Positions 24,414-26,566 of a stretch of DNA of 64,000 nt are shown one piece after another (position 1 is the stretch's first letter; each line of letters opens with the position of its first letter). Origin of the DNA: Deltaproteobacteria bacterium. Lineage in GTDB: Bacteria > Desulfobacterota > Desulfobacteria > Desulfobacterales > Desulfobacteraceae. Location of the stretch: positions 81,813 through 145,812 of the forward strand of contig JAADHV010000001.1 in assembly GCA_013151635.1 (NCBI GenBank), written 5' to 3'. The notes beneath the pieces are model-generated. The model made no database searches. It worked only from the letters and a program-made list of their open reading frames with translations, and was not told the DNA's origin. The position numbers and the translations under genes are program-made.

Positions 24414-24581
24414 ATGGTCAGCTGGTTATGCAGTAAATGCGGATATACCCTGGAAGCAGACACCCCGCCTGAAGAATGCCCGTCCTGTAAGGGCGATTGT
24501 TCCTTTGTCGATAATTCGTGTTATACACCGGATTGCGCGGGAAAGCCAAATGATCCCCAGATCAAGGGTGATGGAGAATAA
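24414..24581 (+). CDS. Rubredoxin-like iron-binding protein
   Basis: A 55-residue protein from the ATG at 24414, where AAGGAG sits eight bases upstream (the longer track start is not supported). CSKCGYTLEADTPPEECPSC gives two CxxC knuckles, the iron site of a short rubredoxin. Two extra cysteines in SCYTPDC follow. Such mini-rubredoxins carry electrons to diiron ferritin-like proteins. The next gene encodes one 18 bases downstream, and both probably belong to one operon through 28753. Confidence 0.85.
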   Translation: MVSWLCSKCGYTLEADTPPEECPSCKGDCSFVDNSCYTPDCAGKPNDPQIKGDGE

Positions 24582-24599
24582 AAAAAAGGAGAACTTGGG

Positions 24600-25430
24600 A
24601 TGAAATGGATGCAGTTTTTTACTCCGGCTGAATCTTTAGATTTTAAGGAAACCCAAAGCTATATTTCGCAACATCCGGGCGATGAGATGACGATACTGGA
24701 TGTCAGGCAGCCATCAGAATATCAGGAAAGCCATATCCCGGGGGCCACCTTGATCCCTTTACCCAAACTTGCGGACAGGCTCAATGAGCTTGATCCTGAA
24801 AAACCCGTCCTGGTCTATTGAGCTGTTGGTGGCCGCAGTCGTGTTGCTGCGCAGATGTTATCAGGAAACGGGTTTAAAAAAGTTTTCAATGTCACCGGCG
24901 GAATAAAGGCATGGCATGCGAAAACAGCTGTAGGACCACAGGATCTTGGAGTGGATCTTTTCTGTGGTAAAGAGGAACCTGAGGATGTGTTAACGGTTGC
25001 TTATTCCCTTGAACAGGGACTGCGTGATTTTTATATGACAATGGAAGAAAAAGCTGCACGTTCTGAAGTAAAAGATCTTTTTGCCAGATTATCTGATATT
25101 GAACTAAAGCACCAGATGTCGATTTACCTGGCATATAATGAAATCAGCAATGAGGGACTGAGCAAAGAAAACTTTGAAAAAAAGGTTGAAAAAAAGGCCA
25201 TGGAAGGCGGGCTGTCCACCAGGGAATACCTTGATATTTTTAAACCTGACCTTGGTTCTGAAACAGATGTGATTTCCCTTGCCATGTCCATAGAAGCCCA
25301 GGCTCTTGACCTTTATCAAAGAGTGTCTTCAAAGATTTTAAACCCCCATTCAAAAGATATTATCAATAAAATTGCCAATGAAGAAAAGGCACACCTGGCA
25401 AGCCTTGGCAAACTCATGGACAGCCTTTAA
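24600..25430 (+). CDS. Predicted selenoprotein: rhodanese (Sec at catalytic position) fused to ferritin-like domain
   Basis: The track splits this gene at a TGA (24819-24821), but both parts are in one frame and together give 276 residues. Residues 1-105 form a rhodanese domain: LDVRQPSEYQESHIPGA, then PVLVY, TGA, AVGGRSRVAAQML and VTGGIKAW. In ordinary rhodaneses the residue after VVVY is the catalytic cysteine, so TGA at codon 74 would insert selenocysteine there. Residues about 125-276 are a ferritin/rubrerythrin-like helical domain with LKHQ and EEKAHL metal-ligand motifs. A small hairpin follows the TGA. Expected role: sulfur or selenium transfer, or peroxide reduction, using the neighbouring rubredoxin. 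A premature stop is the alternative. Confidence 0.82.
24834..24851 (+). other. Candidate bacterial SECIS hairpin
   Basis: Starting 13 bases after the TGA, CGCAG pairs with CTGCG around an eight-base loop (TCGTGTTG), with a possible T-G closing pair. The loop starts about 18 bases from the TGA and has a G in its second position when the T-G pair forms. This fits the loose rules for bacterial SECIS elements. Stem strength is modest. Confidence 0.45.
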
Positions 25431-25444
25431 AGGGAGAATGTAAA

Positions 25445-26566
25445 ATGAGAAAAAATCTTGTGCTTGTAGGTGGTGGTCATGCACACATGATGACCCTTGA
25501 AAGCATCAGCCGGTTTATTGAAAAAGGGATAAAAGTTACAGTGATAGGCCCAAGTTTTTACCACTACTACTCCGGTATGGGCCCAGGGATGCTGGGCGGG
25601 ACATACACCCCGTCCGATATCCGGTTTGAAACAAAAAAGGTGGTCCAAAAACAGGGGGGCGTTTTTGTAAAGGATAAAGTTGTCCGGGTTGATCCTGATA
25701 AAAAAGAAGTTCATACCGGGACCGGGCATGCATTTTCCTATGATGTGCTTTCCTTTAATGCAGGCAGCTATGTTCCAATGCATAAATCCCATAAGGAAAG
25801 TGATAACATCTATTCGGTCAAACCCATTGAAAAGCTTATGGAAGCTGCGGATAAACTCAAAGCCCTGTTTGCAGAAAAGAAGATCATTGTAAGCATAGTA
25901 GGCGGTGGCCCTTCATCTGCAGAGGTAGCAGGAAATGTGTGGCAGTTGGCAAGAAAAGTGAATCGCCATATGCCTGGCATTTATATCTTTGCAGGAGTAA
26001 AATTCATGGCAAGATTTCCAGAGTCTGTAAGAACACGGGTTATTCTTTGTCTTCGCAAAAGAGGTATTCAAATTTTTGAAACAGGCTATGTGAAAAATAT
26101 TTTGCCCGATGAAATCTGCCTTGAGTCAGGTGAAACATTTTCAACAGATTTTATTTTCATGGCCCTGGGAGTCAAACCCTCCCCCATCTTTGAAGAATCA
26201 GGCCTTCCTGTCGGCCCTGATAAAGGGCTTTTAGTAAACAAATACCTGCAGTCGGTAAAATATCCTGAAATATTCGGCGGCGGTGATTGTATCTATTTTA
26301 AGGACCAGCCCCTGGACAAGGTCGGGGTGTATGCTGTCCGGGAAAATCCTGTTTTATTGCATAACCTTATGGCAAGCCTTGAAGGCGGCAGTCTTGATGT
26401 GTTTGATCCCGGGCCTGAATATCTTTTGATTTTCAACGTGGGTGGCAGCCATGGCGTATTAAAGAAAAAAGGACTGGTGTTTGGCGGCAGGCTGGCTTTT
26501 ATGATTAAAGACCATATCGACCGCAAATTCATGAAAAAATTCCAGGCCTTTGAAAAAGTGTTATAG
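25445..26566 (+). CDS. FAD-dependent pyridine nucleotide-disulfide oxidoreductase (type II NADH dehydrogenase-like)
   Basis: A 373-residue flavoprotein. The N-terminal FAD motif is LVLVGGGHAHMMTLE, the second nucleotide-binding motif is VSIVGGGPSSAEVAG, and the FAD-contact aspartate is in IFGGGDCIYF. The GGGHAH start marks the group found as an N-terminal fusion to selenophosphate synthetase in some organisms. That is notable beside a predicted selenoprotein. It has no redox-active CxxxxC pair, so it is Ndh/SQR-like rather than a thioredoxin reductase. It probably feeds electrons from NAD(P)H to the rubredoxin-like/ferritin-like partners or to quinone. Confidence 0.88.
   Translation: MRKNLVLVGGGHAHMMTLESISRFIEKGIKVTVIGPSFYHYYSGMGPGMLGGTYTPSDIRFETKKVVQKQGGVFVKDKVVRVDPDKKEVHTGTGHAFSYDVLSFNAGSYVPMHKSHKESDNIYSVKPIEKLMEAADKLKALFAEKKIIVSIVGGGPSSAEVAGNVWQLARKVNRHMPGIYIFAGVKFMARFPESVRTRVILCLRKRGIQIFETGYVKNILPDEICLESGETFSTDFIFMALGVKPSPIFEESGLPVGPDKGLLVNKYLQSVKYPEIFGGGDCIYFKDQPLDKVGVYAVRENPVLLHNLMASLEGGSLDVFDPGPEYLLIFNVGGSHGVLKKKGLVFGGRLAFMIKDHIDRKFMKKFQAFEKVL

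Follow-up and report, generated by a model that had tools for sequence, protein, structure and literature searches.

Selenocysteine (Sec) rhodanese-like proteins have been catalogued before. Table 1 of PMC13188914 distinguishes forms 1–5, among which forms 2 and 4 carry the motif UxxG, and a COG0607 form 1 Sec rhodanese-like protein is listed in PMC9312934. A Desulfobacula-like genome, Deltaproteobacteria-bbl-31, has been credited with Sec 'sulfurtransferase' and 'rhodanese-like domain' proteins, for which the passages concerned give no domain fusion, evolutionary analysis or SECIS analysis (PMC8318568). For the hairpin that directs Sec insertion, the bSECIS model places a G in the first two loop positions, at 16–37 nt from the UGA (PMC13188914).

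Here we describe a gene in which a predicted Sec-rhodanese is joined to a ferritin-like domain, found in a 64,000-nucleotide stretch of the genome of a sulfate-reducing Deltaproteobacteria bacterium (the window). Judging from comparison with its homologues, the gene almost certainly encodes a genuine selenoprotein whose rhodanese has Sec as its catalytic residue. An orthologue that also carries TGA, 81% identical, occurs in the MAG CORE_19_RING (L092), which we take to come from the same site as Deltaproteobacteria-bbl-31. The gene and its parts lie as follows.

24586–24591, + strand: Shine–Dalgarno-like AAGGAG, read from the sequence, 8 nt 5' of the ATG
24600–25430, + strand: Sec-rhodanese/ferritin-like fusion gene, 276 aa plus TAA stop codon, with TGA at residue 74 read as Sec
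24678–24923, + strand: rhodanese domain, aa 27–108 (Pfam PF00581, 8e-22; Foldseek matches to rhodanese structures)
24819–24821, + strand: in-frame UGA, predicted Sec74, the catalytic residue of the rhodanese loop U-A-V-G-G-R-S, placed by homologue alignment
24835–24850, + strand: candidate bSECIS hairpin core, with arms 24835–24839 (GCAGU) and 24846–24850 (GCUGC) and apical loop 24840–24845 (CGUGUU)
24984–25418, + strand: rubrerythrin/ferritin-like domain, aa 129–273 (Pfam PF02915, 1.4e-11; 45.3 bits against a cut-off of 22.8)

A single frame interrupted at the catalytic codon

Between 24600 and 25430 on the + strand, 276 codons are open, with the TGA at 24819–24821 as the sole interruption. 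The ORFs at 24600–24821 and 24855–25430 are thus a single frame that this TGA alone divides, as the preliminary description had proposed, and readthrough gives a continuous 276-aa protein with Pfam matches to rhodanese and rubrerythrin. The same description had put the TGA at the catalytic Cys, and it does fall there, at residue 74 in Y-U-AVGGRSR. The six-residue active-site loop of rhodaneses is present, and residue 74 is Cys or Sec in all 111 homologues compared. Annotation with the standard code divides the gene in two and drops the catalytic residue, which applies to at least 73 distinct such genes in the public genomes examined.

The codon alternates between TGA and Cys

Six-frame translations of 97 related genomes, searched for fusion homologues, yielded full-length relatives that were 42–81% identical, the majority with exactly one internal TGA. 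Carriers in culture include Desulfospira joergensenii (L104), whose orthologue has the TGA, and Desulfosarcina alkanivorans (L170). A second scan, which sampled 84,980 species with a single genome per species, returned 80 loci (51 with TGA and 29 with Cys); nearly all were from Desulfobacterota, alongside two from Candidatus Scalindua and one from a Neomarinimicrobiota MAG. Once the two sets were pooled and identical ORFs dropped, 114 distinct homologues were left, in which the codon for residue 74 is TGA in 73 and a Cys codon (TGT or TGC) in 41, with no third state. This distribution agrees with the expectation that homologues would have either Cys or TGA at this codon, and with the earlier view that the TGA had not arisen at random. 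On a maximum-likelihood tree, built quickly and without bootstrap, parsimony counts 17 changes of Sec/Cys state, at least 9 of them forced by well-supported branches.

Under the standard code the frame does end at the TGA, and in principle the codon could reflect faulty sequencing or a nonsense mutation, or be a genuine stop that leaves a truncated rhodanese. Against this, 73 distinct homologues, drawn from many independent assemblies, carry the identical TGA, and the downstream half is intact in full-length homologues. Together with the SECIS constraint and the full Sec machinery described below, this makes all three readings extremely improbable. Given the TGA-or-Cys pattern across homologues and the tree, neither faulty sequencing nor an isolated nonsense mutation can account for the codon.

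Loss of the Sec machinery was considered as a general cause of the Cys forms and rejected, since selB, tRNA-Sec or a Sec-type selD persists in most of the Cys-bearing genomes searched.

Two related copy-number observations were made. Desulfopila sp. IMCC35006 has two TGA copies on separate contigs (L158, 6001–6822; L159, 6001–6819). The genome of the window itself encodes a second rhodanese–ferritin-like protein (G000:C44:27178–27960), which is 28% identical and has no internal stop, a distant paralogue with the same architecture.

Selenocysteine machinery and a SECIS hairpin

The genome that contains the window has selB (356.8 bits), tRNA-Sec (selC; 76.5 bits), selA (596.7 bits) and selD, all above curated cut-offs, and its best selD carries an in-frame TGA. 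All four genes whose presence had been suggested as a check were therefore found. SelB also scored above its cut-off in 49 of the 53 relatives searched. In sum, the genome has selABCD, the TGA is no sequencing error and homologues continue past this codon, the three points at which the preliminary description had seen its reading as open to refutation. Two selD-like loci, G000:C2:34729–35658 (L088) and G000:C32:40694–41146 (L090), have one in-frame TGA each, as in Sec-type SelD; the match of the latter spans just half of the family.

We judged the SECIS element by the published bSECIS constraints and by comparative tests. After the UGA, positions +14 to +18 pair with +25 to +29 around a six-base loop, which is mostly C-G-K-G-U-N. 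With 18 nt from UGA to loop and a G at loop position 2, the hairpin fits the bSECIS model; an Rfam scan of the window returned no match at the gathering score.

Because the protein constrains this stretch, the test was placed on synonymous codon choice. All five pairs form in 70 of 73 Sec genes versus 9 of 41 Cys genes (Fisher P = 8e-17, with related sequences treated as independent). Ala83 is GCU in 70 of 73 Sec versus 11 of 41 Cys genes (Fisher P = 4e-15, relatedness inflating the P values), Arg79 is CGC or CGU in 72 of 73 versus 31 of 41, and Ser80 is AGC in 71 of 73 versus 31 of 41. In the Sec ORFs overall, AGC makes up 20% of Ser codons and GCT 20% of Ala codons, and the control codons G77 and Q85 did not differ significantly between Sec and Cys genes. 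Codon 79 starts the five-codon segment of lowest synonymous variation in Sec genes, with two other segments nearly as low. Measured against synonymous recoding, hairpin energy had a mean z of −2.5 in Sec genes and −0.7 in Cys genes.

Evidence from base pairing was less pronounced. One homologue (L132) has a single compensatory change from C-G to A-U, and a near relative (L022) has one pair broken. The RNAalifold consensus of 23 Sec sequences was weak (−3.07 kcal/mol), since most alignment columns are under constraint from the protein. The observed covariation was equalled by 23 of 500 shuffles; pairing by itself therefore counts as modest evidence, and the synonymous lock tests the hairpin more strongly. 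In single-sequence folding, the window's own 39 nt folded no better than shuffles (z = 0.23). The SECIS-type hairpin that had been predicted after the TGA is thus supported by the comparison of Sec with Cys genes, its own sequence alone being uninformative. Repeated Sec/Cys switches in one conserved protein, with a matching SECIS constraint, offer a natural series in which to ask what a rhodanese gains from selenium.

Domain architecture and diiron ligands

The two Pfam matches uphold the proposed fusion of a rhodanese to a ferritin/rubrerythrin-like domain, and this fusion is widespread in homologues. The second domain contains a diiron ligand set, E138, E168-x-x-H171, E232 and E262-x-x-H265. 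Five of these ligands (E138, E168, E232, E262 and H265) never vary among 111 homologues, 110 of which also keep H171. A further motif outside the standard diiron ligand pattern, E202-G-G (window 25203–25211), is invariant in all 111.

An AlphaFold model, made with 47 homologues (mean pLDDT 83, pTM 0.84), shows a rhodanese fold, a linker and a helical bundle. Residues 105–111 and 118–120 of the linker are of low confidence, so the model fixes no active-site distances. By Foldseek, the rhodanese part resembles the rhodanese domains of CoADR-RHD, NADH persulfide reductase and the persulfide dioxygenase fusion, and the bundle resembles 2fzf; by sequence, its nearest relative is TM1526 (1vjx), a ferritin-like diiron protein. 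The chain ends after the bundle, without a C-terminal rubredoxin domain, and has no NF045767 match, and it is therefore not a rubrerythrin sensu stricto.

A conserved flavoprotein neighbour

The fusion gene is flanked by three genes on the same strand.

24414–24581, + strand: RCKP/rubrerythrin-type rubredoxin-like protein, 55 aa, directly upstream
25445–26566, + strand: FAD/NAD(P)H oxidoreductase related to TIGR03169 (Nterm_to_SelD), 14 nt 3' of the fusion-gene stop codon
26609–28753, + strand: VTT membrane domain fused to a MerA/lipoamide-dehydrogenase-like FAD disulfide reductase, 714 aa, next in the run

The FAD oxidoreductase adjoins the fusion gene on the same strand within 400 nt in 83 of the 103 homologous loci with room for it. 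The VTT/MerA-like reductase is kept next door chiefly in nearer relatives, and the rubredoxin-like ORF is syntenic in near relatives at varying distance.

The oxidoreductase matches TIGR03169 at 2.2e-72 and is not SelD-fused. Because a relative of a SelD-fused domain sits next door, we considered selenium delivery, in which the Sec-rhodanese would carry perselenide to SelD together with this neighbour. The oxidoreductase is a relative of the Ndh domain found fused to SelD in other bacteria, the selenouridine synthase family uses a rhodanese fold (weak MnmH matches), and the SelB count among relatives given above also fits. However, the neighbour scores 244.4 bits, below the TIGR03169 cut-off of 310, and the selD genes are located on different contigs. 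Moreover, two Candidatus Scalindua genomes (L129 and L130) retain the Cys form with its FAD neighbour, while neither selD nor tRNA-Sec reached its cut-off in these assemblies, which may be incomplete. The Scalindua loci make selenium delivery unlikely as a shared function, and we regard it as quite improbable overall.

Proposed function

Residue 74 is the sole Cys or Sec in 84 of 111 homologues. There is thus no internal resolving thiol, and the sulfur must go to, or be reduced by, an external partner. Comparison across homologues establishes the predicted substitution of Sec for the catalytic Cys, the retained diiron ligands and the conserved flavoprotein linkage.

From these features, a tentative scheme can be drawn. 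SelB and tRNA-Sec, with the bSECIS hairpin 18 nt past the UGA, would insert Sec into a single-domain rhodanese. Its selenol would most likely be loaded with sulfane sulfur by a persulfide or polysulfide, giving a selenenyl-sulfide. That sulfur would then be taken up or reduced by an external partner, for which the neighbouring FAD/NAD(P)H reductase and a small thiol are plausible candidates. Judged from the domain families only, the most likely task of the diiron domain is to remove peroxide or O2, and on the same basis the fusion would tie the handling of sulfane sulfur to defence against oxidants in anaerobes. We infer both the substrate and the coupling between the domains. Taken whole, this explanation (sulfane-sulfur chemistry on the Sec-rhodanese, external reduction, and diiron removal of peroxide or O2) has a somewhat less than even chance of being right.

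Alternatively, the protein may be a sulfurtransferase, for example in Fe–S sulfur supply, whose ferritin-like domain merely stores or senses iron or oligomerises, with no coupled peroxide chemistry. The joining of a rhodanese to an iron-binding domain would suit such a role, as would the fact that the ferritin-like matches are uncharacterised proteins (TM1526, Pfu). By contrast, the ligand set is of the catalytic diiron type, the conserved gene next door encodes a redox flavoprotein, and Sec is favoured for redox chemistry, all of which count against this alternative and leave it rather unlikely.

Returning to sulfane-sulfur chemistry coupled to diiron peroxide or O2 removal, a more specific version would be a hitherto undescribed bifunctional redox enzyme, in which Sec-rhodanese and flavoprotein pass sulfane-sulfur-derived electrons to a ferritin-like diiron centre for the removal of peroxide or O2. 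Such an enzyme would serve sulfate reducers and, with Cys in place of Sec, anammox bacteria. We consider this version a speculative one, with perhaps one chance in four. The conserved set of Sec-rhodanese, diiron domain and flavoprotein points to uncharacterised sulfane-sulfur handling under oxidative stress in anaerobes.

Comparison with known systems

Like the catalogued Sec-rhodaneses, the protein described here has a predicted Sec at the catalytic position within UxxG, and both are computational predictions. The entries in those lists name no ferritin-like fusion, and by their descriptions the fusion may set the present protein apart. Judged from listings, the literature searched contained no description of a rhodanese joined to a rubrerythrin/ferritin-like domain. 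The preliminary description had called this an unusual enzyme, which may hold for the diiron fusion but does not for the Sec-rhodanese, a type already present in the entries of PMC13188914 and PMC8318568. The Sec-rhodanese is therefore known, and the diiron fusion is possibly undescribed.

Among structurally characterised proteins, the CoA-disulfide reductase–rhodanese and NADH persulfide reductases (3icr, 3nta and 6pfz) also pair a rhodanese with an NAD(P)H flavoprotein, by fusion or linkage, and act in persulfide reduction. They use Cys, whereas the window gene has a predicted Sec, a diiron fusion partner and a flavoprotein of another subfamily encoded by a separate gene. The persulfide dioxygenase–rhodanese fusion PRF (5ve3) likewise combines a rhodanese with a non-haem iron enzyme, but its iron domain is a mononuclear metallo-beta-lactamase fold rather than a ferritin-like diiron bundle. 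With rubrerythrin and TM1526 (1vjx), the protein shares a four-helix bundle and the E...ExxH...E...ExxH ligands; unlike them, it lacks a rubredoxin domain in the chain and carries a predicted Sec-rhodanese at its N terminus, with a rubredoxin-like protein encoded separately, upstream.
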